Assembly: GCA_026461395.1 (NCBI GenBank)
Contig: JAPJNA010000027.1
Location: 1-45,128 of the forward strand
Source of the DNA: Chthoniobacterales bacterium
GTDB taxonomy: Bacteria > Verrucomicrobiota > Verrucomicrobiia > Chthoniobacterales > UBA6821
DNA: 45,128 bases
Reading direction: 5' to 3'
Shown here: positions 6,000 through 42,000 of the stretch, piece by piece
Layout of the letters: each line of letters starts with the position of its first letter
How positions within the stretch are numbered: position 1 is the first letter of the stretch
Program-made: the position numbers and the translations under genes
The notes under the pieces: model-generated
What the model was told of the DNA's origin: nothing
Database searches by the model: none
The model's input: the letters and a program-made list of their open reading frames with translations, nothing else

Positions 6000-6005
6000 C
6001 AGTCG

Positions 6006-12648: not shown

Positions 12649-12652
12649 TCGG

Positions 12653-13650: not shown

Positions 13651-13661
13651 GGGGGAGAGGG

Positions 13662-13800: not shown

Positions 13801-13801
13801 C

Positions 13802-22594: not shown

Positions 22595-22960
22595 GGAGTT
22601 GATTTCATCTGATTCAGGATCCCTGTCAACAACGTGATAAAGATGACTCCTCGAGTTTCGTCCCTCGACTGCCCATTTGACACCACTTTGTTGACTCGTT
22701 CGCCCCGCTCAGCTCGCCCCTTTGGGGCTACCTTTGGTAGTCGTACACGCCGCTTCCCAGTGGCTTGTTTGACACTACTTCGCCAATCTTCAAACTTCTA
22801 ACTCCCATCTCCGACGAGAGAGATCCGTCTCTCTGTCAAAATCCCGCGCCACATGCGCTCCCCCTTCTACCTTCCCACCTGTCACTTTCGCACCTTTTAC
22901 TAGCGTCTCCGGCTTCTTCCCAAACTTCCAAGGAAGAAAGTTGACATCATATTCATTCCG
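22595..22960. other. Spacer with heptad tract and hairpins
   Basis: GCCCC-ttt-GGGGC lies near 22715-22732. From about 22783 to 22905 the sequence reads in 7-nt units (CAATCTT, CAAACTT, CTAACTC, CCATCTC, later CTTCTAC, CTTCCCA). Between them a GACGAGAGAGATCCGTCTCTC stem-like stretch resembles 23861-23880, and GCGCCACATGCGC resembles the GCGCC-nnn-GGCGC modules. A TTGACA at 22941-22946 may serve the next gene. No ORF is supported. Confidence 0.6.
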
Positions 22961-22976: not shown

Positions 22977-23210
22977 ATGATCAAGACCCAGATCCAACTG
23001 CCCGATAGTCTCTACAGGCAACTCAAGAACCTCGCCTCCGACAGAGAGTGGTCTCTAGCCGAGACGCTACGCCGCTCTGCCGAGATGTTCCTGGCAACCC
23101 AGCGGGCGACTGGAAAGCGGCTCGGTGCTTGGAAACTTCCCGAGGCCCGGCATGGCGGTGCCTTCCTTTCTCCAGAAACAGAATGGACAGAGCTTGCTCA
23201 CGGCGAGTAA
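22977..23210 (+). CDS. Ribbon-helix-helix antitoxin (VapB-like)
   Basis: 77 residues. The start MIKTQIQLPDSLYRQLKNLA followed by SLAETLRRSAEMFL is a ribbon-helix-helix fold: a short strand, then two helices. The tail (AWKLPEARHGGAFLSP) is the probable toxin-binding part. ATG 22977 is chosen because the frame upstream runs through the palindrome. The PIN toxin begins 35 bases after the stop. Its family is distinct from the AbrB-type antitoxin at 19590, so the two PIN modules are independent acquisitions. Confidence 0.85.
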   Translation: MIKTQIQLPDSLYRQLKNLASDREWSLAETLRRSAEMFLATQRATGKRLGAWKLPEARHGGAFLSPETEWTELAHGE

Positions 23211-23245: not shown

Positions 23246-23680
23246 ATGATTTCCTTCGACACAAATATCCTAGTCCACGCCTCCAACCTCGACTCTGCAG
23301 AGAACACCGCGGCTAGGGATTTCCTAGAGTCGCTCGCAGAACGCGAGGATGTGGTGGTTTGCGAACTGATGCTCGTGGAGACCTACCTCAAGCTCCGCAA
23401 CTCACGGATCATGCAAAACCCGTATTCTGCCGAGGAGGCCGGGGCATTCTGCCAAGCTCTCCGCTCCAATCCAAACTGGACCCTCGTCGAGAATGCTCCC
23501 GTCATGGGCGAGGTATGGGCCATGGCGAGCAGTCGCGACTTCGCGATTCGACGCATTATCGACGCCCGTCTTGCCACGACTCTACTGCACTTCGGGGTGA
23601 GTGAATTCGCCACCGCCAACGGCAAGGATTTCGAGGGATTCGGCTTCACGCGGGTCTGGAACCCGCTTCAGAACGTCTAG
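23246..23680 (+). CDS. PIN-domain toxin (VapC-like)
   Basis: 144 residues from MISFDTNILVHASNLDS; an open frame extends upstream to 23048 but overlaps the antitoxin in another frame. PIN acidic residues are visible: D5 in FDTNIL, E near 44 and 49 in VVCELMLVETYLKL, and D in RRIIDARLATTLLHFGV, with GKDFEGFGF at the end. The product would be a Mg-dependent RNase held in check by the preceding RHH protein. Between the genes, GCCACCTGCC is repeated. The target is unknown. Confidence 0.87.
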   Translation: MISFDTNILVHASNLDSAENTAARDFLESLAEREDVVVCELMLVETYLKLRNSRIMQNPYSAEEAGAFCQALRSNPNWTLVENAPVMGEVWAMASSRDFAIRRIIDARLATTLLHFGVSEFATANGKDFEGFGFTRVWNPLQNV

Positions 23681-23689
23681 GGACCAATC

Positions 23690-24100
23690 CCTCCTGCGTT
23701 TCCTTGCGTCCCTCGACATCCCGCTCAATCTTCGATATTCAGCGCCACAGGCGCGTCCTTCTTTCTTGTGCCTCTTGTGGCCAATGAATGCCCTAGCCGC
23801 TCGACCCTCGACTTCCCCTTCAGCCTTCAGTCCAACTTCTAGCTTCAATCTCCCATATTCGACGGGTGAAACCCGTCTCTCTGCCCATCTCCCTCGGGCG
23901 TCCCCCGTCTTTTCTGTGCCTTTTGTGCATCTTGTGGCCAATGAATGCCCTCGACACTCGACCCTCGTCCCTCGACTTCCCCCCCATCTACAATATCCAA
24001 TCTTGGATCTTCCGCGCCACAGGCGCTTCCTTGCCACCTTCCCCCCCAACTTCCATCTTCCATCTCTTCGGGTCGTTTCGGGCGGCCTGAATGACGACCC
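23690..24100. repeat. Large heptad/hairpin repeat region with internal duplication
   Basis: Contains GCGCC-aca-GGCGC twice (23742-23754 and 24014-24026), GACGGGT-gaa-ACCCGTC (23861-23877), and 7-nt-period tracts such as CTCGACC/CTCGACT and CAACTTCT/CAATCTCC. The phrase CTTGTGGCCAATGAATGCCC occurs twice (about 23774-23793 and 23931-23950), each followed by CTCGACCCTCG-type units. Frames running through it are repeat-derived and not credible genes. Confidence 0.7.
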
Positions 24101-24332
24101 GATTGTTACGAACTTGTTACAATAGAGATGATGACGATTTCCTTGGGAGAGGGCATATTTGCCGGAGTTCGGAAAACCCAACTCTCGAACTAATCACCTA
24201 CAACCCCTCATACAATCAGCCTCCACAGCTTGCCTGAACAATCAGCAACGTTCTAAAAAATTTCTCCTCGAAGTAAAAAGTCAGATGGATAAAAAAACCA
24301 GAAACGTAAAAACCCAAAACAAAAACAACACC
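24101..24332 (+). promoter_or_regulatory. Leader of the PEP-CTERM cluster
   Basis: TTGTTAC occurs twice, 11 bases apart (24103-24109 and 24114-24120), one helical turn. About 200 bases of A-rich sequence follow before the ATG, ending in CCCAAAACAAAAACAACACC. No SD sequence is present. An in-frame ATG at 24285 exists but would place a Lys-rich stretch before the signal peptide. Confidence 0.4.
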
Positions 24333-25133
24333 ATGAAAAAAACACTACTCGCCGCCCTCGCCATTGCGGGTCTCGCGGTCACCACCGGCGCTCAGGCGCA
24401 GACCAACATCGGATCGGGAAGCGCCCTCCTCTACTTCAACAAGATGGCTGACAAGCCGGATTCAGGCACGGTGAATCTCTCCAACTCGCTTGTCGTCAAC
24501 CTTGGAGATCTCTCATCGAACTTCTCCAGCTTTAACCTGAGCCTCAATACGGCACTTGTGGCCGCATATGGTGCCGGATGGGCAACTGATGACACCATCA
24601 AGTGGGCCGTTTTCGGTGGCTTCAATAGCGAAGCACCTACACCCTACTCCTACGGATTCATGTATTCACGGCAGCAGGCAAGCCTGCTGGACCTCGTGAC
24701 GGTTTACAATCTTTCCAACAAGACTGATGCGTTCTACGCCGAGGCCAACGCCCCGATCTATACGACAGGATCGATTGCTTCGAGCCTGGGAGTCAATCAC
24801 ACGACTGTTGTGATTGAGAACGGAACACTCTCAAACGAAGGTGCCGTTTCGAATGGCGCTGGGCCGTATGCCATGGATCTTAACGGATTCGACGCTTTCA
24901 ACGGTACGCTTGCCACCTTCCAGTACCAGACTAATAGCCAAAACATCTACTTCAATGGTCTCATGGACGCGCGGGGTAACTATGGCGACCAGGCTGCAAT
25001 CAAGACCGGCACGATCACCCTCGCCTCCAACGGCACTCTCTCAGTGAATTCTGTTCCAGAGCCCTCCACCTATGCCCTCTTCGGTTTCGCTGCCCTCCTC
25101 CTCATCGTGGCCTACCGCCGCGCCAACGCATAA
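24333..25133 (+). CDS. PEP-CTERM sorting domain protein
   Basis: 266 residues. The start at 24333 gives a proper signal peptide (MKKTLLAALAIAGLAVTTGA, then QAQ). The body carries LVVNLGDLSSNFSSFNLSL, AAYGAGWATDDTIKWAVFGG and other segments shared in outline with the proteins at 26569 and 28075: hydrophobic-LG, then a TYG/YG-x-x-W step, then a W/YGV strand. The end is VPEPSTYALFGFAALLLIVA plus an arginine-containing tail, a PEP-CTERM signal for exosortase processing. It is secreted and surface- or matrix-associated by inference. The exosortase is not in the window. Confidence 0.88.
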   Translation: MKKTLLAALAIAGLAVTTGAQAQTNIGSGSALLYFNKMADKPDSGTVNLSNSLVVNLGDLSSNFSSFNLSLNTALVAAYGAGWATDDTIKWAVFGGFNSEAPTPYSYGFMYSRQQASLLDLVTVYNLSNKTDAFYAEANAPIYTTGSIASSLGVNHTTVVIENGTLSNEGAVSNGAGPYAMDLNGFDAFNGTLATFQYQTNSQNIYFNGLMDARGNYGDQAAIKTGTITLASNGTLSVNSVPEPSTYALFGFAALLLIVAYRRANA

Positions 25134-25177
25134 TTCACAGTATTTCGGTCAACACAACTAAACAACCCAACAAAAAA

Positions 25178-26485
25178 ATGAACAAGAACCTGCTGATCGC
25201 CGCAATTGCGGCCATGGGCGTAGTCTCGGCTTCCGCCCAGACGACCGTCTACCTCACCGGTGCCACGGCCTTCCGTAGCGTTGTCAACAAGTCGCTCTTC
25301 GATGATTATGGCGCCAAACTCGCCGCAACAACCGGAAGCAGCTCGACGGATGATGCCGCTGCTGCGCTCCTCTTCACCAACATCAATGTCGGTGGCACAA
25401 CCGTTGATCTTTCCGTCAAGTGGTCGGGATCTGAGGCTGGAATTCGCACTGTTGCATCTCCTTCCTCCAACACTGTCACTGATACATTCTATTCACCCTC
25501 GCTGGTAAAGGCTCTTACGGGTTCATTCCCGAAGACCGCTTACGCGCTCTCTTCTGCGAATCAAACAAACGCACGTGGAGACATCGCCTTCTCAGATACC
25601 TGGCAGGCCGTCTCCAACTTCCAGGGTAAGGCCAAGGATAACCGTACCTACGCCACGCTAAACGAGGCGAAGGTAGGTGTTGTGCCATTCACCTTTGTTG
25701 CGAACAAGGGTTGCGGCATTGACAACATCAGCCTCTCCACAGCCTGCCAATTGGCAAAGGCTGGTCGCGTTCCCGCCAGCATCGTGACTGGTATCACCAA
25801 CGATATAACCGGTGGCGCTTGGTTCACGGGCCGTGATCCCTTTTCGGGAACCCGCGTAACGGCACTCATGGTTGGCAAGGTCGGCTACAATACAGCCATC
25901 AAGAACTACAAGCCCACGGTAAGCGGTGGTCTAATTACCGCTCTGGGTGATTACGCTTCCAACGCTGTGTCTGGTCTTGCTGTGACTGCGGCCGGTAATG
26001 GCGAAACCTCCGGTGGCACCCTCTGTGGTTACATGACCAACTCAATGTCCGCAACCGTCAGTGGCGTCCCTGTCACGGTGAACGGTCGTGGCAATACCAA
26101 CATCCTCATCAGCTATGCTGGTGTTGCTGACGCTGCCGCCAAATTCTCCGGTGGTCTTATTCCCCTCAAGTTTGAGGGTGTTCATGGCCGTTTCGGTCTG
26201 ACTAATGAATACAGCGCTGCCAACCCTGGTCGGCTCGATTCCGGATACACCAACATCATCAGTGGAAAGTATCCCTTCTGGTCCTATGAGCACATCCTCT
26301 GGGATTCCAGCCGCATGAGCGCCGCTGCCTCAAACACCCTCACCTATCTGACCAACACCTTCGCATCCTATGCGACAACCAACACACTGATGGCCCCGAA
26401 CATCGCCCTGGGTGACATGAAGGTTTATCGTCTGAGTGATGCAGGTGAAATCAAGTACAGCACCAACGCAGCTCTGTACCGCTAA
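25178..26485 (+). CDS. Secreted PstS-like (periplasmic-binding-fold) protein
   Basis: 435 residues with signal peptide MNKNLLIAAIAAMGVVSASAQ. Early VYLTGATAFRSVV and central WFTGRDPFSGTRVTAL resemble the phosphate-binding loop region of PstS/DING proteins (R-D-x-x-S-G-T-R), and KYPFWSYEHIL resembles the late YP-x-x-x-x hinge. It has no PEP-CTERM tail, unlike its neighbours, and no ABC transporter genes are near. Ligand binding is therefore a guess from fold. It follows the PEP-CTERM gene by 44 bases with an A/C-rich leader (CAACACAACTAAACAACCCA), so cotranscription is likely. Confidence 0.7.
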   Translation: MNKNLLIAAIAAMGVVSASAQTTVYLTGATAFRSVVNKSLFDDYGAKLAATTGSSSTDDAAAALLFTNINVGGTTVDLSVKWSGSEAGIRTVASPSSNTVTDTFYSPSLVKALTGSFPKTAYALSSANQTNARGDIAFSDTWQAVSNFQGKAKDNRTYATLNEAKVGVVPFTFVANKGCGIDNISLSTACQLAKAGRVPASIVTGITNDITGGAWFTGRDPFSGTRVTALMVGKVGYNTAIKNYKPTVSGGLITALGDYASNAVSGLAVTAAGNGETSGGTLCGYMTNSMSATVSGVPVTVNGRGNTNILISYAGVADAAAKFSGGLIPLKFEGVHGRFGLTNEYSAANPGRLDSGYTNIISGKYPFWSYEHILWDSSRMSAAASNTLTYLTNTFASYATTNTLMAPNIALGDMKVYRLSDAGEIKYSTNAALYR

Positions 26486-26506
26486 TCAGTAAAAAATTAA
26501 TTGACA

Positions 26507-26534
26507 CCCCTGAGTATTAAACAATACTCAGGGG
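26507..26534. terminator. Perfect 12-bp hairpin
   Basis: CCCCTGAGTATT (26507-26518), loop AAAC, AATACTCAGGGG (26523-26534). No T run follows on the plus strand; on the minus strand an A/T-rich stretch with TTTTTT follows. It lies 22 bases after the PstS-like stop codon and 35 bases before the next start, so it may terminate, stabilise the upstream 3' end, or bind a regulator. Confidence 0.6.
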
Positions 26535-26568
26535 GGATCAATTTACCTCCAACAAATCATCGCAAACC

Positions 26569-27348
26569 ATGAAAAACTCACTCGCGGCATTTATCATTCT
26601 TGCTGGTAGCGTAGCCGCCTCTGCGGCTGTCTCGACTCCAGGAAATCTCGTTCTTGGTTTCCGTGCTGAAACTGGGACGACGGGAGAAAGCAACAACGTT
26701 GTTATCGATCTTGGAGCTCTTTCCAGCATCATTACTGACACACGCAATACATACAATCTCAGCGGCGCTAGCTCCATTCTCAGCACAACGTATGGAACTA
26801 ACTGGTTCAATCGTACGGATCTTTATTATGGCGTAATTGCTAATGATGCCTACGAGATCAATGGTGGAGATGATTACTACCAGTCATTCGCTTCCACTCG
26901 TCTCGCCAACAGTGGTTCTGTCACGCTTGATGCTATTTCCGTTTATACAGCTCAGCCTACGTTCCAGCAGTTTGCGTTGAATAATTCTTCAACAGCGCTT
27001 TCAAGTGGTACGATCAGTGGGGCCACTCGTGGTGGGGGCTTCCTCACCAGCGATTACCTTGTTCTCGATAGCGCCGACTCAGCATCATGGTCTACTCTCA
27101 GCGCTGCGGGTTGGGGAGGGCTTTTCACTGAATCGCAGGATAATCTGGTCACTTCCTACACATCATCAACGAGTGCTCTGGGAATTTATACGGCTGCTGG
27201 TGGTTTGAATGACTTCAATCAGACGATTCCAGCCGCTGTTTATATTCAGAGCGGTTATCTCGTGGTCGTTCCCGAACCTTCGACCTACATGCTTCTTGCT
27301 TTGTCTGGAGTTGCTCTTCTCTACATTGCTCGTCGAAAGAAGGCCTGA
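26569..27348 (+). CDS. PEP-CTERM protein, founder of the shared N-domain
   Basis: 259 residues with signal peptide MKNSLAAFIILAGSVAASAA. The mature start TPGNLVLGFRAE, NNVVIDLG, YNLSGASSILSTTYGTNWF and RTDLYYGV align residue by residue with the N-terminal part of the 1458-residue protein at 28075. The tail is VPEPSTYMLLALSGVALLYI with a KKA end, a PEP-CTERM signal. Function is unknown; secretion and sorting follow from the signals. A strong terminator ends it. Codon use is more AT-rich than the housekeeping genes. Confidence 0.88.
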   Translation: MKNSLAAFIILAGSVAASAAVSTPGNLVLGFRAETGTTGESNNVVIDLGALSSIITDTRNTYNLSGASSILSTTYGTNWFNRTDLYYGVIANDAYEINGGDDYYQSFASTRLANSGSVTLDAISVYTAQPTFQQFALNNSSTALSSGTISGATRGGGFLTSDYLVLDSADSASWSTLSAAGWGGLFTESQDNLVTSYTSSTSALGIYTAAGGLNDFNQTIPAAVYIQSGYLVVVPEPSTYMLLALSGVALLYIARRKKA

Positions 27349-27383
27349 AAGCTACTCTGAGTAATTAATAGTACATTCAACTG

Positions 27384-27417
27384 GAAGGCCCCCGTCACGG
27401 GGGCCTTCTTTATTTTT
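27384..27417 (+). terminator. Strong Rho-independent terminator
   Basis: GAAGGCCCCCG (27384-27394), TCA loop, CGGGGGCCTTC (27398-27408), an 11-bp perfect stem followed by TTTATTTTT. Confidence 0.93.
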
Positions 27418-27466
27418 ACTCCAAAAGCTCATAGGCGGGTCTGATATTCTATCGGTATTATTCCCT

Positions 27467-28018
27467 ATGAAATCCTCCTTTATCAATCATTGGCTGGTGA
27501 GATTGTTACTCACGATAATGCTGCTGCTGACTTGCGTTCTTGCATATCTCATCTGTCAAGAAATACGTGACGTGTCCGTAATGGCTGACCACTCATCTTC
27601 TTCAAATGCGCAGGGGCTTCCTGAAAAGACTCACCTCACAACCAAGACTTCAGTTTCTCAAAATGTCTATGCTGAAATAAATGGGATACAGGGTTATGCC
27701 TCACAGGCGTCCCCCAAGGTGGGTAGCGAGGCATCCCTTGAAGTGAGCGCATCAGATCCTGTGGTCGAGGCCTCCGAGGATGCGCCTGATATTGCACCTC
27801 CTTTTCTTTATGAGATCAAACCCTCTAAAATGGCTCTGCTTGATCAGGATCAACAGCTTGCTGTTCAGAAGGCCTTTGAGTCTTACCTGGCATTCCAACA
27901 AGCAGGCGGGGGAAATACCGATTTGCGCGTGCTCAAGGAATCATCTGAAAAACTCAAGGAACAGCTTGCTGCCGAGATCGGTCCTATTGCGGTCCATGAT
28001 TTGATGCAAGGGGAGTGA
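27467..28018 (+). CDS. Membrane-anchored protein, unknown
   Basis: 183 residues. One hydrophobic segment (residues about 9-31, VRLLLTIMLLLTCVLAYLIC) anchors a Ser/Thr-rich, low-complexity middle and a helical, charged end (DQQLAVQKAFESYLAFQQ, then LKESSEKLKEQLAAEIG). No family recognised. It lies 56 bases before the large beta-repeat protein on the same strand and after a terminator, so it may belong to the same surface module. A secretion-helper role is only a guess from position. Confidence 0.65.
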   Translation: MKSSFINHWLVRLLLTIMLLLTCVLAYLICQEIRDVSVMADHSSSSNAQGLPEKTHLTTKTSVSQNVYAEINGIQGYASQASPKVGSEASLEVSASDPVVEASEDAPDIAPPFLYEIKPSKMALLDQDQQLAVQKAFESYLAFQQAGGGNTDLRVLKESSEKLKEQLAAEIGPIAVHDLMQGE

Positions 28019-28055
28019 TGTGACGAATCTGTAACGGGATTTCAGCGTTCAAGGT

Positions 28056-28063
28056 GCTATAAT
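28056..28063 (+). promoter_or_regulatory. Extended -10 promoter element
   Basis: GCTATAAT preceded by T gives the extended -10 TGCTATAAT (TG at 28055-28056, TATAAT at 28058-28063). The ATG of the next gene is at 28075, so the transcript would start about five bases before it. No good -35 is seen. Confidence 0.5.
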
Positions 28064-28074
28064 AAGAATCTACC

Positions 28075-31000
28075 ATGCCCTACAAGTCGCTCTTGCGCTG
28101 CTTTTTCATACCTCTCCTGAATCTACGGAGGTTTTTCAGTGGCTTTCTTATTTTGGTAACCTTGTGTTCTTCTCCTGCTCTCTTGGCTGTGGCGGGAGAT
28201 ACTCCCGGAAACCTTTTGTTGTTCTTCCGTGAAACGGATTCCACAGCACCAATTGGTGCCAATGATAACATGGCTATCGATCTCGGATCTTTCCCGGCAA
28301 ATCAAACGGGTTTTCGATACGATTTCTCTGGCAACTCAATTATTTCGCGGACGTATGGAAATGATTGGTTCCAGCGGGAAACATTGTTCTGGGGCATTAT
28401 GGGATTTGTTCCTTACCCTGAAGAGACCGACGAAGGTCTCGCCAAAATGAAGCTGTTCATTTCGCGGGAATCATCATCCACAGTGTTGGGTCAGATAACT
28501 GGAGTCTCATTGTATAATCTGGCGCAACCGTGGCCTGCTCTTATAAATGAAATGATCTATGGTAGTGGTGGTACTGCGAATGTTTCCGGTGCTGACTTAT
28601 CCTATACGGTGTTTACGAAAGGTGAGAGCGCTTGGAGTGGCATGCAGGAGAACTCCTCCGGGGCCTTCAGCGGGTCCATTTCTTACACTGGCAATTCGGA
28701 TCATCAGATTACGATAAGCCGCGATCTGATTCTCTCACAGTACACGCCTGATCTTGTCGATTTCGGCAATGTTGCCATTTCTGCCGATCTGCTCTCGATA
28801 CGATTCACCAATGGAATTCTCTCTGCCACTGCCATCTCGGGTGGAGGAGGTTCTGGCGGTGCTTACTCTGGACCTTGGAACTGGACGGCGGGCTCGGGCA
28901 ACTGGGACGCTACGAACAACTGGACGAGCAATCAGGTAGCCTCTAACGGCTACGCCGCCTGGATCACAGGTGTTGCGGGCGGAGGGACGATCACGAACAA
29001 TGGTGTCTCAAGCCTCTCTAGCCTCACCTTCAGCAATGGTGCAGGATCCTTCACATTGACCGGCACCAATCCCGGCCAGACCCTGACAATCTCAAGCGGC
29101 ATCAATAACAACTCGAGTAATACCCAGACGATCGATCTCTCGATAGCCGGAGCAGGAGGTGTCACCCAATCAGGCTCAGGCACCACCGTGCTGGTCAAGA
29201 GCAACTCCTACGTCGGTGGTACGACCCTGAACAATGGAGCGGTGGTGATCGGTAATAACAACGCTCTCGGCTCTGGCGCGGTGACTGTCACGGGTGCCTC
29301 ATCCCTGATCGCGGGCGTGGCCAATCTCTCCACAACGAATGACATGGTGCTCAACGCTGCAACAACCATCAATACGGAGGCAAACCGCTGGACCAATGCT
29401 GGCACGCTCTCGGGATTGGGATCGCTGACCAAGACTGGGTCGGCGACTTTGACTCTTAGTGGGACGAGTGCGAGTTATTCTGGAGCCTCGACCATCAATG
29501 CCGGTGCGATGCAGGTTACTGGGAATCTTGGAACAGGAACCGTGACGGTGAGCAATGGGGCCTCTCTCTCCGGATCGGGAAGAGTCGGTGGTATCACAGT
29601 GGCCTCCGGCGGCGCAGTCATGGCTGGAAGCGATACGGCGATCGGAACCCTGACTGTGACAGGCAATGGGATCTGGAGTGGGGGGGGCATTTACAACTGG
29701 AAGATCTCCGATGCCTCAGAGAATGAGGGCGTCGGTTACGACTTGATCTCGATCGGAGGAGCGCTGGATCTCTCGGGAGTGACTTCACTCAACAAGTTCC
29801 AGATCAATCTCTGGTCCTTGGGGGGCAATGCCGCCAACTTTAATCAGGATATCGACGGGGCTTGGAAGATCGCCTCTTTCTCTTCGCTCAACGGTAGTTT
29901 CTCTACCAACCTCTTCTCGGTTAACCTTGGGGCCACCAATGGTACGGGAGGTTTCCCGAACGCCACGAACGGGACATTCTCCCTCTCCTCCTCGGTAGAT
30001 GCCTTATTCCTGCAATACAAGACGCGGGCCGCCACGGAGACATCAGGAATCTGGTCAGCTGGCTCGGGAAACCTGACCGGGATCACCAATGGTTCCCTGC
30101 TTCAGTTCACTGGAGTAGGGGGATCGGTCACCAATCAGTCCGTCACCGATCTGACCGGGATCTCTTACGGATCCTTGGCGGGAGGTTACACCCTCTCCGG
30201 AACGAATATCACCCTCTCCGGTAATGTGACGAATGCCTCTTCATCCCAGCAGAACATCTCCTCTAGGATTAACTTGGCCACCAACGCAGCCATCACGGCC
30301 CAGAACGGGGCTATGCAACTGGCAGGGGCCGTAGCGCTGGACTCCAATAACCTGACGATCTCCGGTGACCGACAGACCACGCTCGCAGGCGACATCGCGG
30401 GATCAGGGACTCTCATCAAGCAGGGAGCCGGCACTCTGGTTCTATCAGGGGTCTCTTCCAATGCCGGCGGTCTTGCTGTCGAGTCAGGTCGGGCGATCCT
30501 CTCAGGAGGGGATGACAGGCTCTCATCCAACGGGAGGCTCTCGGTGTCGAGTGATGCAGTCGTGGACCTCGGCACCAATAGCCAACGCTTCGTGGCGCTC
30601 TCAGGATCGGGGACCATCACGGGTGGAAGCGGTTCGATCACGTTCGCCCCATCGAATGCCATCTCCTATGCCGGAACAATCGGGGGGCAGAAAGCCGTCG
30701 TGCAGAACGGATCCGGTACCACCACCCTCACCGGTTCCAACAGCTATACGGGAGGAACCATTGTCTTCGCAGGGACTCTCGTCGCGGGATCCAGCAATGC
30801 CTTGGGTGCCAATCTCTCCCCGGTATCTGTGAGAGGTGGCACACTCGATCTGGGGGGGGGAACCCGGACAATGGGCTCGGTGACCCTCACAGCGGGTGAG
30901 ATCTCCAACGGATCCATCACTGCCAATCTCATGGCTTGCGTGGCATCGGGCCAGCAGGCCACGATCTCCGCCACGCTGGCGGGGAATAGGGGATTCTGGA

Positions 31001-32451
31001 AGTTGGGAGCGGGAACCCTGAACCTCCTTTCAGCGATGCCAACCGGAACGAATATCGTGATGTCTGGCGCCCTCAAAACATCCGGATCAGTGATGGGAGT
31101 CGCCAGCAATGCTCTCGGTAAAATCATCCTGGGAGGCACATCCAGTCCTGCTCTCTGGACGAACGAAGGGAATCTGACGCTGGCTACAAACGGAAAGACG
31201 ATCTTGGAGTTGAGGGATGCCGCCACACTCCGAACCGGTGATCTCACCCTCGCCGCAGCGAAATCTTCGCAGGGAACGCTCCTTCTCACCGGAACGGGAA
31301 CCAATGGTGGAACCACGATCGAGGTCGGTTCGGGAACGATCACCTTCGGCGCCGGTGCGGGGAAGATCGATTACAAGAAGTCATCCTCCTCCACCCTCTC
31401 CCAGGCACTCTCCGGCAAAGGGATGGTCACGGTCTCCGGCATGGGAACCCTGACCCTCGCCGGGAATAACTCCGGATTTGCCGGAACCAACTACCTCACC
31501 TCCGGAGGGATGGTGATCGGCGCCAACACCCTCAACGGGGGTGTGGCACTCGTTTCTGGTAAGAAAAGCACACTCACGCTCCAGCAGGGAGCCAGCCTCT
31601 CAAGCACCAATGCCCTGCATGCCGTTGGGGGCAAGCTGATTGACAATTCGGGCCTGGCGTTTACCAACTCGATCCGCTCCTCCAGAATCGTTACCAATGG
31701 AGCGCTACGCCCCGGAATCTTGCTTGCCACAGGAGGTACGCTTGAGAAGAGCTACACCGCCACCAACGATGTGACAAGGAATGTGGCGGGTTTCGGCGCG
31801 GGATATGGATCGGGTAAATCCTTCCAGATTCTCTCCGGTGCCGTCGCGGGCGCCTCGACACTCACGGCCCTGTCGGATGCCAATGGAAGGTTGGATCTCC
31901 ACGGAACGGGCAGCAATCCCTTCGTCATGGCGATGACCGATGCGAGCTTCACAGCCACAAGGAACCAGATCCAGTGGCTCTACACAAACAGTGCCACTCC
32001 GTATTGGACGAACACCATTGCGGGTAATATCCAAGGAAGTAACAAGACTGCAGCGATCAGCGGGATGAATGGACTCTCTTTTGCTGGGAGCTTCAATAGC
32101 TTCCTTCTCCAGACGAGTCTCAAGACGGCTGGGATTACGAGTGACCCAAGCGACACCCTTGTCGAACTGAATGATCTGGGGACTGACAGCATCGCCGGGT
32201 TGCTCAATAAAATCATGGGGGCGTACGGTTACGACAGCGCCACCAAGACGGCATGGGCTGTCATCAACCACAACAGCCTCTTCGATTCCCAGCCAGGAAT
32301 CGACACGGATCCCGGCCTTGCGCCTCTGGATATGGGAGCATCCTCAGTGACCACGCAGACCGTCCCGGAACCGGGAACCTGGGCCCTGATGATTATTGGA
32401 TCGGTGGCTCTGCTTTTCGCAATAAAGGCCAAAAACCGGAAGAAGATTTAA
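28075..32451 (+). CDS. Large autotransporter-type beta-strand repeat protein with PEP-CTERM
   Basis: 1458 residues. A long basic signal peptide (residues 1-40) precedes a domain homologous to the protein at 26569 (DTPGNLLLFFRETD, then MAIDLG, SGNSIISRTYGNDWFQRE). A glycine-rich linker near residue 255 leads to a W-rich start (GPWNWTAGSGNWDATNNWTS) and then beta-helix repeats of the autotransporter-associated type: NSYVGGTTLNNGAVVIG, SLTKTGSATLTLSG, GAGTLVLSG, NSYTGGTIVFAGTL, MGTLTLAGNN. The end is VPEPGTWALMIIGSVALLFA with a basic tail, so the protein is PEP-CTERM sorted and has no classical autotransporter barrel. It is a probable extracellular adhesin or matrix protein. GC content rises sharply at the repeat part (about 28840), consistent with a domain fusion. 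Confidence 0.9.
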   Translation: MPYKSLLRCFFIPLLNLRRFFSGFLILVTLCSSPALLAVAGDTPGNLLLFFRETDSTAPIGANDNMAIDLGSFPANQTGFRYDFSGNSIISRTYGNDWFQRETLFWGIMGFVPYPEETDEGLAKMKLFISRESSSTVLGQITGVSLYNLAQPWPALINEMIYGSGGTANVSGADLSYTVFTKGESAWSGMQENSSGAFSGSISYTGNSDHQITISRDLILSQYTPDLVDFGNVAISADLLSIRFTNGILSATAISGGGGSGGAYSGPWNWTAGSGNWDATNNWTSNQVASNGYAAWITGVAGGGTITNNGVSSLSSLTFSNGAGSFTLTGTNPGQTLTISSGINNNSSNTQTIDLSIAGAGGVTQSGSGTTVLVKSNSYVGGTTLNNGAVVIGNNNALGSGAVTVTGASSLIAGVANLSTTNDMVLNAATTINTEANRWTNAGTLSGLGSLTKTGSATLTLSGTSASYSGASTINAGAMQVTGNLGTGTVTVSNGASLSGSGRVGGITVASGGAVMAGSDTAIGTLTVTGNGIWSGGGIYNWKISDASENEGVGYDLISIGGALDLSGVTSLNKFQINLWSLGGNAANFNQDIDGAWKIASFSSLNGSFSTNLFSVNLGATNGTGGFPNATNGTFSLSSSVDALFLQYKTRAATETSGIWSAGSGNLTGITNGSLLQFTGVGGSVTNQSVTDLTGISYGSLAGGYTLSGTNITLSGNVTNASSSQQNISSRINLATNAAITAQNGAMQLAGAVALDSNNLTISGDRQTTLAGDIAGSGTLIKQGAGTLVLSGVSSNAGGLAVESGRAILSGGDDRLSSNGRLSVSSDAVVDLGTNSQRFVALSGSGTITGGSGSITFAPSNAISYAGTIGGQKAVVQNGSGTTTLTGSNSYTGGTIVFAGTLVAGSSNALGANLSPVSVRGGTLDLGGGTRTMGSVTLTAGEISNGSITANLMACVASGQQATISATLAGNRGFWKLGAGTLNLLSAMPTGTNIVMSGALKTSGSVMGVASNALGKIILGGTSSPALWTNEGNLTLATNGKTILELRDAATLRTGDLTLAAAKSSQGTLLLTGTGTNGGTTIEVGSGTITFGAGAGKIDYKKSSSSTLSQALSGKGMVTVSGMGTLTLAGNNSGFAGTNYLTSGGMVIGANTLNGGVALVSGKKSTLTLQQGASLSSTNALHAVGGKLIDNSGLAFTNSIRSSRIVTNGALRPGILLATGGTLEKSYTATNDVTRNVAGFGAGYGSGKSFQILSGAVAGASTLTALSDANGRLDLHGTGSNPFVMAMTDASFTATRNQIQWLYTNSATPYWTNTIAGNIQGSNKTAAISGMNGLSFAGSFNSFLLQTSLKTAGITSDPSDTLVELNDLGTDSIAGLLNKIMGAYGYDSATKTAWAVINHNSLFDSQPGIDTDPGLAPLDMGASSVTTQTVPEPGTWALMIIGSVALLFAIKAKNRKKI

Positions 32452-33049
32452 ACCACCAAGAGATATCCAAGGGAATCCGATTATTCACCACTAAGGGGGA
32501 TCCAAGTGGGATCCAAGTTAGAGAATCCAAGTGGGGGATTAGGGGGAGCAAGTGGCATGGGCTCCGAGTATCGGAGCTGGCTTGTCGAATGAGTGCCTCT
32601 GCAAGCGAGCTTGCGAGAGCACATCATCTCGACAAACCTCACCGCAGTACCTTCGGCACTGCGTCCATGCCAAGCCCTCGACGCGCGACTTCCCTACTCA
32701 GTTCCTTTTCGGGAAAACTTTGCCGGTCCTTGGCTGTTTCCTTGGTGGTAAATTCCTTCCATGCCCCTTTAGCGTAGCTACCTACTAGCTACTGGGCACC
32801 CACTTTCTCACCTTCGCACCTTCCCACTTTATACTGCCCGCTACTTTTTGCTCTCGACGCTCGACCTTCGTCCCTCGACTTCTCCGGTCTCTCCCCAAAC
32901 TTCCATATTCATACTTCTATATTCCGCGCCCCAGGCGCTCCCTTCGCCGGCACTTGGTGGTAGAAAATGCAGCCTGCAGATCTCCTTTTCTTTTATGTCG
33001 GAATTGTAACACTTGAAGCCATCTTTTTAGGGTAGTCTTTCAGACCAGA
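32452..33049. other. Spacer with repeats and hairpins before the giant exoprotein
   Basis: ATCCAAG-type direct repeats at 32463-32535; GCTCCGA-gta-TCGGAGC at 32561-32577; a long imperfect hairpin at 32581-32636; heptad tracts near 32795-32830 and 32855-32925 (CTCGACG, CTCGACC, TTCGTCC; AACTTCC, ATATTCA); and GCGCC-cca-GGCGC at 32926-32938. TTGTAAC at 33004-33010 may belong to the promoter. No credible gene. Confidence 0.65.
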
Positions 33050-36000
33050 ATGAGGATTCTTCACCAGTTCACCGAAGGGCTTCTTCGCTTGTTGCGAAGA
33101 GGGCCTTATGCTGTTGAAAACGTATCGTATCACATAAGCGCCAAGTCTCGCCTGAGATGCCCTCCCCCCCTGGTCAGATTCCTGGCTCTGATGCAGGCGG
33201 TTCTGGTTGTTTTCTCGGGAAGCCCTCCTCTCCTTGCCATCACGATGTCGGGGATCAGGGCCGGTACAGCGACTCCCGGATCCGGCGGACAAGGATCCTA
33301 CTCCAATCTCCAGAACGCCGGTGCCGCCTCGGCGGCCCTAACAGCCGCGATGGCTCAGGGGAACCTGAAGAAGGCCAACGACATTATCACGGCGATGCGT
33401 CAGGTGCAGGCTGAAGCCAGAAACGCAGCAACGGGCAAACTTCCAAACGGATTATCCATTCCTAATGGACTGAAGCCCGGTGGGTTGGAGGTTTACAATC
33501 CCAGCGGACAAGTCACTGCCAGCGGCAATGTGCCGATCACTTGGAGCGGTGTTTCCTCCTTGGCTGAGATAAGAGCCGCTGCCTCCGACTCCGCAGCGGC
33601 GACGGTGAACGTCACCCAGGGGCAGCAGAGTGCCTATCTCTACTGGAATAAGTTCAATGTCGGCCCTCAGACGACCCTCAACTTCCATCTCGCCGAGAAC
33701 CTCAAAGCGAATCCCGGTCAGAATATCGCCTTTAACAAGGTGATGAGCCCCTCATCCGCCTCCCACATTTTCGGCAAGATCAAAGCCGATGGTCAGGTCT
33801 ACATCCTCAACCAGAACGGGATCCTCTTCCACAACGGCTCTGCCGTGAACACCCGATCCCTCGTCGCCTCCACCCTTCCGATCAATGAAAACCTTGCAGG
33901 CTCCGCGACTAAGGCGGGACGGGGTATAGCCAATAACCCCGACTATCAGTTCCTCTTTTCGGCTCTGGAGGTTCCTGCAGGCAAGAATGGCCCTACCGAG
34001 AAATTCACACCGCAGGTATTTAACTCGGGAAAGGTTGGAAATGTTGTTGTTGAAAGGGGTGCCACCATCACCTCCCCGAAGGATGACAATAACTCAGGAG
34101 GTCTTGTAGCTCTCGTCGGTCCGGGGGTGAGTAACGAGGGAACGATCAGCACGGCTAACGGACAGACAATCCTTGCGGCAGGCCTTCAGGTAGGCTTGTT
34201 CCCTCACGCTTCTTCGGATCCAAGTCTTCGCGGTCTGGATGTCTACATTGGAAAGGTTGATGACAAATCGATCAGTACCGAGGACTTGTCAGGCGGCAAG
34301 GGCGCGGGCACAGCGGTTAATTCAGGCGTGATTGATGTGCCCCAAGGAAGTGTCACCATGGCTGGAAAGACCATTCTCCAGAAAGGGGCCATCGATGGGA
34401 CGACGTCCGTGTCATTAAACGGACGCGTGGATCTCCTGGCCAACTATGATTCAGAGATCAACACAGCGTATTTGCCGAATAACTCTCAGGGACCGCCCGT
34501 GTTCTTCACCAAGACGGGTCTTGTTGAGAGTGGGCCGGGAAGTGTCATCCGGATTCTGCCAGAGTGGGGGAGTGCGGAAAAAGTGATCGGAGATACCCTT
34601 GCCCTTAACTCCGCGGTTTCCATTTTGGGACAAAATGTCCGCTTTGGTCAGGGAGCTCTTCTTCTTGCTCCCGGCGCCGTGAAAACCTCCGGTGCCCTCT
34701 CACAGTTTTCATCGTTAGACGGAAGTCGTTCGTTCCTGAGTGACGGGGTGACCGTCGATGCGGGCAACTGGGTCAAGACATCGGCCACCACGGTGCGATT
34801 AGTCCACGATGGAGGGCAAATCTTTCTGGATGAGAATTCCGTCATCGATGTTGCCGGTTCGACGGGTGTGGAGGTCAGCAGTTCAGTGAATTTCATCACA
34901 CTCCAACTTCGTGGCTCCGAACTGGCGAGCAGTCCCCTGCAACGGGAAAGCGTCATCAGGGGCAAAAACATCACGATCGATATCCGCAGGAATGGCACCT
35001 ACGAAGGGCGCTACTGGGCAGGGACCCCGCTGGGAGATGCAACGGGCTACGTTGGTCTGATCGAGAAGACGGTCGGGCCTCTCACCATTGCAGGTGGAAG
35101 CGTTTCCCTGACAGCGGGTGACTCCGTTGTCATGAGAAACGGATCTCAAGTGAATGTCTCCGGAGGATGGATGAGATATATGGGCGGTAGCTTCAGCACC
35201 TCCAAGCTCACGACTTCAAGAGGTGAGATCATCGATATCTCCCAAGCCACACCCGATCTTATTTACAGTGGGATTATCAAGGATTCGCCGAAGTTTTACG
35301 ATCCCGCCTACTACCGTGGAGGTGACGGAGGGACATTGGCCATTCAGTCTGCAGCCATGGCGCTCGATGGCAGAGCGCAGGGAGCCACGGTGGTTGGTTT
35401 CCGGCAGTTGAGTCCGCTCTCCTCCATGGAGAGCACACTTCCGGCTGCTTCTTCATTATCTCTTGCAATATTCTCGGAGAAGTTCCTCAGCGACCTCAAT
35501 GCGGTGGTTCGCCAATCACTCTACCAACCCGTAATCCGTATCGCGGCTGCGCCTGACTACGCCGCGCCACGCCCTGAGTTCCTCTCATCCCTTCCAACCG
35601 AGCGCACTTCCGGGATCACTCTGGATCGGGGGCTTTTTGGAGAGTCTGGATTCGGGGAGTTGTCCGTTGATAATAAAAACGGGAGTTTTTTGCTGGATCG
35701 AGGTGTTTCGATGTACCTAGGTGGTGGAGGCAGGCTCGATGTGAGTGCTGGTACGATCGATATCGGCGGGGGGATTTACGCCCCAGGTGGATTGATGAAA
35801 CTGAAGTCCTCTTCCCTGACGTATGCTGACCTGCTGTTGTTGGATTCCACCACGTTGCTGGACGGGCCTGTTACCGATCTCTGGACGCTGAAACAGACTG
35901 GTGAAACGGTCATGGAAGTGGGCAGGACTCCGGACGGCATGATCCTTCTTCAGGGACAAGCGCCCGTCACTCAAGATCAGTTAACGGCTCGGAATACCGG

Positions 36001-39000
36001 CAGGATTATACTCGGAGAAAGTGCAGTCTTGGACACGTCCGGCCTTCTGACTGACTTTTATTTATCCCGAGGATCCGCTCCCGTGATCATGAACGGGGGA
36101 GGTGTCATGTTAAATGCCTATCGGACAGATCTCCGTCCAGGTAGTGTAATCAATGTCTCGGGCGGGGCCTCCCTACTTCCGGGAAAAACGAGTTATGGGA
36201 AGGCTGGATCCATCTCGATCAGCGGAGGGTATGATCCCGACAAAGACTCGGTTTTCTCCACCGGAGAGCTTCGCTTCAACGGTGCATTGAAGGGGTTCTC
36301 CGGTATAGGTCAGTCAGGAGGAAGCCTCTCCCTTGCGGGTAGGGCCTTTCAGATCGGCGGGATCGCTCCAACCGGCGTCATCGGCCTGAGTCCTTCCTTC
36401 TTCAACCAAGGAGGCTTCTCCTCCTTCACGATTCAGGGGCAGGGCCTTCCCACTGCATCTCCCGATAACTGGATTCCTGCCGTGGCCGTGGCTCCAGGCA
36501 CAATCCTCTCTCCCAAGCCGATCTCTCTGATTCTTTCCTCCTCGGGCGGGAGGCGAACGCTGGTGCCTTTTTCCATGCCGGCAAGCCTGGCTCCTAATGT
36601 CTCGCTGACTTTTCGAGGCGCTCCCGTCCGTGAAGTCAAGACCCAACGAGCTATGGATAATGGCAATGACATGGTTGTTCGTTCCGACATCATGATTGGC
36701 AAGGATGCGATGCTAGAGGCAAAACCAATGCTGGTTTCCTCATCCCTTGAGCATGAGGCCGGATCGATCGTGCTGGATGCTCAAACCGTATCCCTTGAAG
36801 GAACGCTCTCGGCACCGGGTGGATCAATCGTTATTTCTGCGTCAAAAAACACCGATAGGTATGCACGCACTAGTTTGGATAACTACGCGGATGCCCAGTT
36901 TACACTGATTTTAGGAGACCGCTCCTCGATTTCGGCTTCCGGGATTCCCCTCCTGACGCCGGACCCCTTGGGTATCCGTGGAACAGTGGGTGTGGTTCTT
37001 CCCGGCGGAGAGGTAGAATTAAGCGGAAATATCCTGGCACTCCCCGGTTCCTCGATCTCTGCATCGGGAGCGAGCGCCGATTTACGTTATTTCCCCAACC
37101 AGCTCGGAGCCAGCAAGGGAGGCGTTCGCACGATCCGTGTCGACTCAGCGGGGGGAAGTATCTCGTTGCATGGAGGCCAGATGCTTTATTCCGCCGCAAT
37201 GCTAAACGCCAAGTCAGGGGGGAGTTCGGCGAATGGTGGAAAACTCCAGATTGATTCTTCCTTTTACTTCAGAGACCGTATTGATGAGGGAAGCGGGGGA
37301 ACGGCGGGATTCGACCGCTATAGCGTGAGAATCCAGGGATCAGAAGCGGATCTCTTCTCGAGTATTGATCAACTTGGTGTTTCAAAGGTGGCGAGTAATC
37401 CACGGAAAAAAGTCACTGATGGCGGCGCTTATCTTTCGCTTGCCGCGATTCAGTTGGGTGGTTTTGACCGGGTTGCCCTCGACGGGAATGTGGCGTTCGA
37501 GGGACTCGGGGTGGTGGATGCCACCCTCCGGATTCCCGGAATCCTGAAAGTAGCATCTGGAGGTCTCCTGAGGTCGGACGGGGGAATTACCCTGGAAGCC
37601 GATTCGGTCTCCCTGGGACAGCCTCTGAGTGTTCCTCTGATTGGTATTGACCGCGCAAACACGACCATCATTTCTACAAGCTATGGATTGACAGCAGATC
37701 AATATATCGCACTGACTGCTGGCCCAGGCTCTGTGACGGTTAAGGCGGATCAAATCGATATCGGCAATCTCTCACTCCAGAACGCCTCCAAACTGCGTCT
37801 TCTCGCACAGAATGGTTCTGTCCGTGGGGATGGTACGCTGGATCTTGCCGGCGATCTCCTGATCGAGGCGGGAGCGGTTTATCCCGCTTCCGGGACCACA
37901 TTCCAGATATTCGCCTATGACTCGGGAGTGGGAGGATCGCCGGGATCAATCAAGATCAGTCAGACGGGAGGGGTCAGCGTTTCGCCTCTTTCAGCAGCAG
38001 GATCCCTCGCGCTCTATGCGTCAAGCATCGATCAGGGAGGGACTCTCCTTGCCCCTTTTGGTAAGATTACGCTCGGTTGGGATGGCGCTGGAGCGATGCC
38101 GAAGGATCCTCTCAGCGGTGCTGGCTTCTCTTTACGTGCTCAAGCGGTTCCCGAAACGGACTCCATCCGCCTGCGGGCCGTTTCTGTCACTTCCGTTGCG
38201 GGCAGGGATCCCGTCTCGGGCCGCGAATGGATCATCCCCTACGGTACCTCTGCGGATGGTGGAAGTTGGATCGCTCCGGGAGGAATCGATATCACCTCCT
38301 CCGGTCTTCCGGGCAAGTCTGTGTCGCTGGCCTCCCGCGGATCGATAGTCATGGATTCAGGTTCGATGATTGATCTCCGGGGAGGTGGTCAGGCTACCGC
38401 CTACCAGTGGATTCCCGGGATTGGAGGAAAGAACAATCTTCTTTCCGAGGCATCGCCATCCTACGTGTCCGGGAGTTCCTATCTGCCGGGAGAGATCGTT
38501 CGCTACGAGGGCAGGCTCTGGTCCGCCAATGTCAGGATCGATCCGAAAAAAAATGCACCCTCTCCCTCAGAGGGCATCTATTGGACAAGGATTCCGGAAC
38601 GCTATGCGATCATTCCGGGATATTCAGGATCGCCTGATCCCACGGGCTACGGAGGATTGCCAGAGACAGGTCAAATGATCCGTCTCTCCTCCGGAATCCC
38701 GGGACTCTCAGCCGGTGATTACACACTCCTTCCAGCCAGTTATGCGTCCCAGCCCGGCGCTTATCTCCTCTCGGTACCGGAGTCACTGCCTTCATCACCC
38801 ACTCCCATGTCGATGCCTGATGGAACTTTCCTGAATTACGGGGTTAGGTTTGATGCCTATGGTTCCTCCTCAAGCATTGCCCAACTTGGCAACTACTTCA
38901 CAGTCACTCCTCCGGCGGCACTGTCAAAAAGGGTCGAATTCAAAAATCTTTCTGCCGGTGAATTTTTCAATAATCAAGGAGCCAGTGATCCGGCACATGC

Positions 39001-42000
39001 CGCCGATCTGACCTTGGTAGCTGCCAGGTCAATGGATCTCCGTTCCAACATCAGGTCATCGGGTAGAACCGAAGGCCTCGATGCCCGGATCGGCATCTCC
39101 TCACCTCTAGATTTCAGGATCGTTGCGAGTAGCTCGGGGCGTACTCCGGGATCCGGAGAAATCCTGCTAGATGCGGGCGTCCTCAATTCCTGGAATGCCG
39201 GGGGTCTCTTAATCGGTGGAGTCCGATCTAATCCTGATAACGAAGGACCCGTGAAACTTTCCGTCACTTCTGCATCAGTTATTATGGAGGATGCGGATCT
39301 GATGGTGCAGGATTTGATCTTTGCGGCTACCGGTAAGGTTGAATTGGAATCCGGTGCCTCGATTGTCAGCACGGCAACGACCAGCCCCCTGAATGACCAA
39401 AGTCTTTTCCTCTCTGGGAATGGAGCATTGCTCAGGGTTAGCGGAGATCCCGAAATCAGCATTTCCAGAGGAAGAGTTGGAAGTATTGCCGACCCGGCCA
39501 GTCTACTTATCGGGAATAATAGCTCACTGCGTGGTGGTTCGATCCTTCTGGATTCGAGTTCACTCATGAATCTGGCCGACACGGCAACCTTCACCGCAGG
39601 ATCCGTGAGCATGGCGGCTGGTTCGGTGGCGATAGTCGGAAGGGCCTCGGATCCCATTCCCAGGGATCAGTCCGATGACGTCAGCTTGATCATCGGCGGA
39701 CGACTACTTGATTCCTTGGAGAAGGCTACAGCGCTGGCAATTACGAGTTACTCGACCCTCTCTCTCTATGGATCCGATTCCATCGCAGGAGACTCGCTCC
39801 GCACGCTGAAACTCAATGCCTCCGCCATCCGGGGCTTCCTCCCCGAGGATGGAATCTTCGGCTTCAGGGCGGAGACGATCCTTCTTGGGAATAGTGCGGG
39901 AGAGGCCGCTTCTAAGACTGCCATGGATTTACCTTCCGGAAGCCTAAGTGGCTGGTCAGGTTTTAAGGTGCTTGAATTTGAAGCATCCCAGTTCGTTCTT
40001 GGAAAAAACAATCTCCGACTCGACAACTTCACTCAGGTGAATATCACGGCCGCAAAAGGGATCCAGCTCTCCGCCTCGGGTGGTTTGGATGCTGGAACGG
40101 CTAGCAATCTGTATCACCCCTCGGAGGGTGAAAATGCCGACATCATTACCCTTGTCTCGGGAGTCACTCCGTCTGATCTTGTCGTGAAGGATCGTGATGG
40201 GGCCACGCTCTCGGGAGATGTTCTGCTGGATCTGCCTGCCGGTAGCAGTGTCCTGATCCCACAACTAACGCAACTGAGCATCTCGACACCTTTTGTCTCC
40301 GGTGCCTCTGGAGTATCCTCCGGGATACGTGCGTCCGGTGGGCTTGTGTTTGACGGATCGGGTTACTCCGCTACACCGAGTGACTCCGGCCTTGGAGTAG
40401 CCTTGGCATTACAGGGCTCTTCCGTGGAAATTCTCAACACGCGCTTCGACCTGACTGCTGGCTCACTCTCTGCAACGGCAAGATCCGGCGATATCCTGGT
40501 AGGCTCGGGAGCTTTCATCTCGGTACGTGGCGGTGACATCAAGGTTCAGGACACGCGTGTCACCACGGATGCAGGGAAGGTTTCCCTCGCTTCGTCCCTT
40601 GGAAAAATTGAGATCGCCGCTGGATCAGCTATTGATCTGAGTGCGCCCTCCGGCAAATCACTCGGAACCTTTTCGTTAAGTGCTCCGGGCTTGGGCGATT
40701 CGGACAACGAAATTCTCCCCGGCGGAGTGGCCATCATGCCGGGAGCGAAGTTCATAACTGGGGGAACAGGAGGTGCTTCGCTAAATCTGGATCTTGGATC
40801 CTTGGAATCGTTTTCCAGTCTGCGATTCGGCCTGAACCGGGAAGGGAATCCGGCAAGCTTTTCCGAGGCTGGCTTCACGGGGCGGGTGACAGTCAGGGTG
40901 TGCGGTGGGGATGTCGTGCTGGATGACCTCGTTCAGGCACGTCAGTTCAGTCTCTCCGCAGATCGTGGATCCATCACCGTGGCACCCTACGCAGGAGTGA
41001 ATGCCTCTGGCCAAACCGGAGGGACGATCAGCATCGTGGCCTCCGGGAGTCTCTCCCTAGAGCCCGGCGCCTTTCTTAGCGTTCAAGGTGAAAAGTATGA
41101 CACTTCAGGGAAAGGCGGAAGTATCCTCCTCTCCGCCGGAGCAGCTGTTGACGGGCAGATCGATCAATCAGCGATGCTGGGTCTCACTCTCGGTTCGGAG
41201 ATCGATCTGGGGGTAGATCAGATTAGCAATGGGGTTGATCAATTCGGTGGCACACTCCATCTCAGAGCCCCGGTCATCGAATCCGTTGATGGCCTGGGGA
41301 TCCAGATCTCGATGCTGGACTCCGCTATCGTGGGGGCATCAAGCGTTGCAGTGGAGGGATACCGTCTCTATGAGTTGGGCGGCACAGTGGCCGACCTGAA
41401 TAGTGCTAAACCGCTCAAGGTCGACGGAGGGGACTACGATGGGGATCAGACAGTTCTTGAGTTAGCCAAGCAGGATGCCCTTCGGTTCGGTAGTCAAATG
41501 GATGCCATTCTGGAGCGTCTCATTCCCGAGGAGACGCCGAACACGGAATTATGGAAGCCATTCACGGGAATCCCTATCCTCAACCTCACGGCTGGGATTG
41601 AAATCATCAACCGTGAGGGCTCCATCAAGCTCTCCTCCGACTGGGATCTTGCCGATGGCGTGGCATTGGGTGTGCCGCAATACCGTTACGGAAGCCGCAA
41701 GGCCCCTGGATTCCTGACTCTACGGGCCGCCAGCGATCTCGTCCTTGAGGCGACCTTATCAGATGGATTCACTGCAAATCCTGTTCCGAAAGAGAGTGGG
41801 GCGCGCTCGGGGTCGGATAATATGGCGATCCTGCTCGATCGGAATCCTGATTTGCCATTGAATTTCCAGTCTTGGAGCTATGATCTCACGGCAGGGGCTG
41901 ATCTCGCTTCCGCCTCTACCGTCATGACCAGTCCTCAGCAGGGTAGGGGTGACGTCAAACTCGGCAAGGTGACTTCAAAGTCGAACATTCTCCCCGTTGG

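Follow-up and report, generated by a model that had tools for sequence, protein, structure and literature searches.

The window analysed here, a stretch of 45,128 nucleotides, is contig C80 of a Chthoniobacterales metagenome-assembled genome (MAG; G000, 2.03 Mb in 80 contigs, 95% complete). It carries short palindromic DNA modules, termed M1 and M2, set among tandem arrays of 7-nt units (heptad tracts). Together with the heptads, these modules lie on both sides of a gene pair, composed of a PIN-domain gene and its small upstream partner at 22977-23210, which is followed by PEP-CTERM genes. The NusG of G000 is 96% identical to that of MAGs labelled 'Spartobacteria bacterium', which places the genome on the Chthoniobacterales side of Verrucomicrobiota. 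The host lineage is a little-studied, lake-dwelling group of this phylum, and a literature search found no published work on repeats in it. Comparisons cover 15 more species of the same genus (G001-G015; 16 genus genomes in all). Statistics for G000 come from sampled stretches of about 0.95 Mb, genes were called with a simple caller made for this analysis, and stretches of relatives selected for holding hits were left out of the unbiased tests. MAG incompleteness weakens all absences given below.

Modules around the PIN-domain gene

The features on which the analysis centres are the following.

22686-22773, plus strand: decayed M2 copy (covariance model R1, 55.5 bits, E = 5e-13; family alignment A1)
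22779-22822, plus strand: pyrimidine-strand heptad tract, 3' of M2
22817-22834, plus strand: hairpin AGAGAGA-tccg-TCTCTCT with a loop of four, at the tract edge
22846-22858, plus strand: decayed M1 copy GCGC-cacat-GCGC
23246-23680, plus strand: PIN-domain (VapC-like) gene (PF01850, E = 3.7e-6)
23742-23754, plus strand: M1 hairpin GCGCC-aca-GGCGC, 62 nt past the PIN-domain gene
23791-23860, plus strand: mixed heptad tract (CTCGACC, TTCAGCC and ATCTCCC types)
23861-23877, plus strand: hairpin GACGGGT-gaa-ACCCGTC abutting that tract; the same hairpin occurs in a comparable spacer of G002 (L099)
23947-24013, plus strand: heptad tract of CTCGACN and then ATATCCAATCTTG, reaching the next M1 hairpin
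24014-24026, plus strand: M1 hairpin GCGCC-aca-GGCGC, directly 3' of ...AATATCCAATCTTGGATCTTCC
32787-32925, plus strand: octads (CTTCCCAC-type) with CTCGACG/CTTCCAT heptads, reaching the next M1 hairpin
32926-32938, plus strand: M1 hairpin GCGCC-cca-GGCGC, directly 3' of ...CCATATTCATACTTCTATATTCC

All the stems named in the initial annotation lie where it placed them, and they are mostly pieces of the two module families. M1 is the hairpin GCGCC-nnn-GGCGC, 13 nt long and without a constant tag. Its three intact copies are each preceded by ATATTC(A/C) or ATCTTCC, and the decayed copy reads GCGCCACATGCGC. Dinucleotide shuffles of the window predict 0.06 such sites, and none of 100 shuffles reaches three. 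The pattern (GCGCCnnnGGCGC) is found at nine sites in G000, against four for the reversed control pattern. Eight of the nine lie immediately against a pyrimidine-strand heptad run, at its 3' end; the run is of the form ATMTYCC or, on contig C24, CATTCCCC. Four of these eight are on contig C67. The copy at 32926 has an orthologue, flank included, in G004 (L095:15545). In the relatives G004, G014 and G002, M1 stands at a tract edge again, with the stem kept and the loop letters different, and this recurrence indicates that the module is real. Most exact matches in other genomes lie in unrelated sequence, and decay is seen in many copies of M1 and of the stems.

M1 and M2 are also frequent on C67 (L027), where they keep one orientation and lie between the gene sets of a toxin-antitoxin/defence island, comprising a DNA methylase, DUF4268, RloB with AAA_21, HepT with a nucleotidyltransferase, and DUF3368. 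The PIN neighbourhood is occupied by other small sets of genes in G002 and G004, again between the same modules.

The initial annotation further proposed that loops are always three bases long and that such stems accompany heptads as a rule. Loops of four occur in GCCCC-ggga-GGGGC at 10367 and in the hairpin at 22817-22834, and loops of 4-6 nt are present at other tracts. Stems with 3-nt loops number 2.0 per kb within 50 nt of tracts and 1.59 per kb in other spacers, which is not a real enrichment; they are about equally frequent in heptad-free spacers, the outcome that the annotation itself had named as contrary to its proposal. None of the 29 GC-rich 3-nt-loop spacer stems in the G000 sample abuts a heptad run (random positions, 0.8%); for this count the window, contig C67 and two further contig pieces selected by hits were set aside. 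The window holds about 80 perfect 3-nt-loop stems of at least 5 bp, mostly within genes, and two of its best tracts (12630-12761 and 13642-13814) are without a 3-nt-loop hairpin. Such counts would be expected if the stems were intrinsic terminators and GC-rich stems arising by chance in GC-skewed spacers, and had drawn attention because they were being sought. Chance is nevertheless refuted for M1, by the shuffles and by its genus-wide recurrence at tract edges, and for M2, by the E-values and covariation described below, and as an overall explanation it is highly improbable.

Fold, range and nesting of M2

The stem GCCCC-ttt-GGGGC at 22716 is part of M2, a larger repeat of about 90 nt. The window copy holds this stem (22716-22728) and CTACC-ttt-GGTAG (22728-22740). 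The general layout comprises, in this order, TTGACGGCAC[CTTGCC-nCCC-GGCAAG]CnGTGCC, CCC-tnn-GGG, a further stem, TCTTCCGCG, CCnn-TTCCC-AnnGG and CTTGG. An nhmmer search gave 41 copies, and covariance model R1 gave 42 hits in 82 loci, with E-values down to 1e-26. The second M2 stem has a 3-nt loop in 20 of 25 scorable copies, and this is the true core of the earlier impression that loops are always of three bases.

The fold of M2 is conserved while its letters change. Double changes occur in 12 of the 16 modelled pairs; 95.0% of alignment cells are paired (74.2% after shuffling), and 99 cells carry double changes (30.4 after shuffling). The covariation score is 0.498 against 0.149 for shuffled alignments (0/500), and slid controls do not exceed 0.077. 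M2 matches no Rfam model, and its family alignment displays no long terminal inverted repeats. Integron attC R/L boxes (RYYYAAC...GTTRRRY) were not seen by eye at the ends of M2, and the IntI integrase was not searched for.

M2 is present in 15 of the 16 genus genomes, with 3-73 copies in each carrier (0-73 over all species) and 23 in G000, and it is nearly absent from 42 genomes of other genera. Its flanks are rich in 7- and 8-nt periodicity: the best lag-7/8 score is 0.485, compared with 0.337 at random spacer sites (p = 4e-10), and scores of at least 0.5 are reached at 39% of copies and 2.7% of random sites. In 30 of 31 copies, M2 is carried by the pyrimidine strand of its heptad or octad tract. 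M2 is in register with the surrounding units: between the 7-nt flanks on the two sides of the core, the match is 0.52 at offset 0 only, with 0.20-0.27 at other offsets and 0.34 against the flanks of other copies. Four copies have perfect 7/7 flank repeats, in L109, in L110 and in a tandem pair in L103. Relative to host genes, the direction of M2 is random (23 same and 15 opposite on the 5' side, 18 and 16 on the 3' side), and a transcript-linked role of M2 in hosts was dropped on this ground. Orthologous spacers without M2 are found in the comparisons of G009 with G003 and of G002 with G014 (L114 vs L082, L148 vs L154), so that M2 displays the presence/absence at orthologous sites typical of miniature inverted-repeat transposable elements (MITEs).

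A separate observation concerns G004, where an M2 lies within a second, partial copy of a tRNA 3' end (L161:14590-14900), arranged as GGGTTCGATT[M2...]CCCTTCACCCGCTCCA; it is absent from the G000 orthologue.

M2 also occurs in phages. In IMG/VR it was found by pattern in eight stretches on seven contigs; the six stretches checked score 89-98 bits and hold at most three copies each. Genes for portal, head protease and major head proteins lie on L310, and one for a tape-measure-like protein lies on L311. In L311 one M2 copy is followed by TTCAGCT-TTTAGCT-TTTAGCT heptads ahead of a start codon, which places tract and M2 together in a phage too. A blastn search of public plasmids and annotated phages, with one copy as query, returned no M2.

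The explanation tentatively favoured takes M2, and probably M1 as well, to be non-autonomous mobile elements of a REP/MITE-like kind (REP, repetitive extragenic palindromic) that are recognised as folded DNA and land on the pyrimidine strand of tracts. A recombinase or transposase would act in trans on M2 and M1, and would recognise the fold of the single strand, not a fixed sequence. If the pyrimidine strand of a heptad tract were the preferred landing site, copies would come to lie in register within the tract and in a fixed orientation to it. The elements are nested in hypervariable, strand-polarised 7- or 8-nt tracts, which would turn over fast, by slippage, insertion or break repair.

An alternative is that the hairpins act as RNA, serving as terminators, 3'-end stabilisers or leader structures, with tract arms forming long imperfect intergenic hairpins and selection on the transcript keeping stems while loops drift. 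The covariation of M2 would be expected equally for an RNA, and hairpins beside a tRNA and a stop codon, described below, fit it as well. The lack of orientation relative to host genes, the decay of many M1 and stem copies, the absence of an Rfam match, and tracts with junction hairpins lying in frame within an open glycosyltransferase gene all speak against this role, which is judged fairly unlikely but a serious rival.

Several points likewise count against mobile elements recognised by their fold. M2 has no linked transposase or recombinase: Y1_Tnp (PF01797), the domain of REP-associated tyrosine transposases (RAYTs) such as the TnpA-REP that the initial annotation had suggested seeking, was not found in G000 and is present in just 2 of 16 genus species, though 15 of the 16 carry M2. 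The inspected Y1_Tnp gene of G007 (C70) is framed by its own inverted repeat, AAAAGGGGTCGGTCATTCA, and the G007 L302/L305 region is without M2, the nearest copy being about 3.5 kb away on C33. M1 has just 13 bp. All phage M2 copies found (L309-L314) are oriented with the genes and sit shortly before start codons, an arrangement that agrees with a function as RNA. Insertion of any kind into an array already present would give flanks in register too. Finally, no clean single-event insertion of M2 with a defined duplication was seen, as the M2-free spacers also differ in their tracts.

Heptad tracts and their edge hairpins

The tracts reported in the initial annotation are real: in the G000 sample, 33 of 583 spacers reach the threshold at lag 7 and 22 at lag 8, while each other lag from 4 to 15 gives 0-8. 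Many unit families coexist, including CTCGACC, TTTCAGG, ATTATGA, CCTATTC and ATCTCCC, along with octads such as CTTTTTCAC and GCGCAGAG. In 44 of 49 cases outside the window (Fisher p = 2e-8), a purine tract occupies the left end of its spacer or a pyrimidine tract the right end, and this polarity holds for all four gene orientations. A sample of a sister genus (G016) has no lag-7 tract. Further tracts of the window, none with an assigned strand, are listed here.

6001-6106: inverted-repeat spacer between convergent genes, with heptad arms purine-left (6001-6043) and pyrimidine-right (6054-6106)
6103-6123: hairpin AGCCGTCGC-tac-GCGACGGCT at the outer tract edge, found in orthologous spacers only where certain heptad families occur
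10374-10444: tract of purine heptads lying downstream of nusG, beside GCCCC-ggga-GGGGC (10367-10380)
10601-10660: pyrimidine heptad tract with the terminal hairpin GCCCC-tcc-GGGGC (10648-10660)
12630-12761: purine/pyrimidine heptad arms, a counter-example without a 3-nt-loop hairpin
13642-13814: purine/pyrimidine heptad arms (AAGCTGA / TTTCAGG), a second such counter-example

The spacer at 6001-6122 (locus B) was compared across 15 species. Most orthologues have a purine-rich tract after one stop codon and a pyrimidine-rich tract before the other, and the unit family changes between species, in both arms together. This sharing of one family by both arms is plain at locus B; within G000 it could be followed in only six pairs (p = 0.053). 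A hairpin directly 3' of the stop codon, with differing loops, is kept in several orthologues, as an RNA element would be; the form CCGTCGC-nnn-GCGACGG accompanies one heptad family only.

When 165 unbiased genus tracts are all read 5'-3' along the purine strand, stems of at least 5 bp with loops of 3-5 nt number 12 at the outer (5') edge and one at the inner (3') edge (p = 0.003); loops of 6-8 nt are without bias (six outer, seven inner). The proposal that heptads and a mini-hairpin form a module therefore stands for M1, M2 and this directional excess of small loops, and fails as a general rule for 3-nt loops.

The same excess suggests another origin, in which error-prone repair left the tracts and their junction hairpins as scars. 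On both sides of a break, the 3' end would fold back with a loop of 3-5 nt, copy a small number of its own flanking bases and then be extended with purine-rich 7- or 8-nt repeats. Polarity that ignores gene direction agrees with this, although any inverted-repeat spacer gives polarity too. The best evidence for fold-back copying is a glycosyltransferase-type ORF on contig C17 of G000 (P0001; L014:1219-4068), which has two heptad-tract inserts in frame. The first, located 3' of SVADQ, comprises the tract and a junction hairpin, both in frame. Different tracts occupy the same point in G007, G012 and G015, and the site is empty in the distant relatives G037, G021 and G036. The outer arm of the hairpin belongs to the native coding sequence; the inner one is an inverted copy of it, following the codons of each species: TGCCGAC-caa-GTCGGCA in G000, CGATCGC-ttg-GCGATCG in G012, and, with 17 bp of stem and a loop of 4 nt, TTGCTTCAGTGGCTGAT-caga-ATCAGCCACTGAAGCAA in G007.

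A fold-back origin was also considered for a hairpin directly 3' of a tRNA end, where a 99% identical flank accompanies a different loop. It was dropped because the flank is the conserved tRNA and other species carry compensatory stem changes (CTCCAGCC/GGCTGGAG, GTC/GAC). This hairpin, seen in several species and followed by a T run in G005, is better explained by structural selection, as the RNA alternative predicts. Repair scars are further disfavoured as the general explanation by the lack of a candidate enzyme, since Ku of non-homologous end joining is missing from the genus and reverse transcriptase from G000, both of which were considered as tract makers and rejected. In addition, M1 and M2 share sequence across loci, which independent scars would not, and the pattern is seen in only about 12 of 165 tracts. 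Such an origin is regarded as unlikely, though it too is a serious rival. The three explanations may also divide the material, with M2 mobile, some single hairpins RNA-structural, and tract junctions formed by fold-back.

Three observations stand apart from these arguments. Octad tracts of GGCGCAGA and TTCCTGAG types occur in G000 spacers (L022, L024, L050, L054) as a separate repeat class, and octad runs of this kind resemble runs in other phyla. A recurring GCGTGGGTCAGGACATAGGTAACAC...GGTTCAAGACATGGGT near tracts (window 10560-10610, L065:2325-2375, L010 at about 5935) looks like an insertion-sequence end or remnant. Downstream of the PEP-CTERM genes, the gene caller gives a very long ORF at 33190-45127 that continues past the window end.

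Known repeat systems and significance

Tandem heptamers between genes, as in G000, are also found among the cyanobacterial short tandemly repeated repetitive (STRR) sequences, a likeness in description. Intergenic 7-nt tandem tracts polarised at gene ends, which characterise families of the GGGNATC/STRR type, are present here. Rickettsia palindromic elements (RPE) are palindromic repeats that can lie in frame inside genes. The glycosyltransferase inserts share this in-frame position, but they are hypervariable heptad tracts and not copies of one sequence. RPE are named alongside REP and bacterial interspersed mosaic elements (BIME), the GTAG- and CGTC-tagged palindromes in which Opitutus terrae, another member of the Verrucomicrobia, is reported to be rich in the GTAG form (PMC3733652). 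M2 resembles REP and BIME as a short palindromic intergenic repeat in tens of copies, with heterogeneous stems in which pairing is kept and with a lineage-restricted range; it differs in having about 90 nt, several stem-loops and a place on one strand of heptad tracts, where REP are single 20-40-nt hairpins (PMC3733652) with an unpaired GTAG/CGTC tag. Most M2 carriers also have no RAYT.

The GGGNATC heptamers of Xanthomonas and Nostoc have their G-rich strand as the coding strand after stops and the non-coding strand before starts (PMC4692102). They are likewise degenerate intergenic tracts near gene ends, with the polarity seen in G000, whereas G000 has many heptad families together with octads, few G4-like units, and nested hairpin modules. 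Marine Beggiatoaceae have TAACTGA heptamers, direct repeats that immediately precede start codons; in the part of the account considered, they form one fixed heptamer with no hairpin modules described, in contrast to the many heptads of G000 (PMC4679880).

A more far-reaching possibility, considered very unlikely, is that the tracts are accumulated target duplications left behind as folded elements of the M2 type inserted and excised many times over, the elements being exchanged between host and phage by a process outside the known transposase families. If true, this footprint process alone would explain heptads, octads, purine/pyrimidine polarity and nested hairpins. Degenerate heptamer tracts are known from several phyla and have no accepted origin. 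In this genus, a hairpin element supported by covariation lies in register within such tracts, the polarity of the tracts ignores gene direction, and a single spacer carries differing heptad families across 15 sister species. These findings connect palindromic repeats, heptamer tracts, toxin-antitoxin/defence islands and phages in concrete ways that can be tested, and M2 can be traced with covariance model R1.

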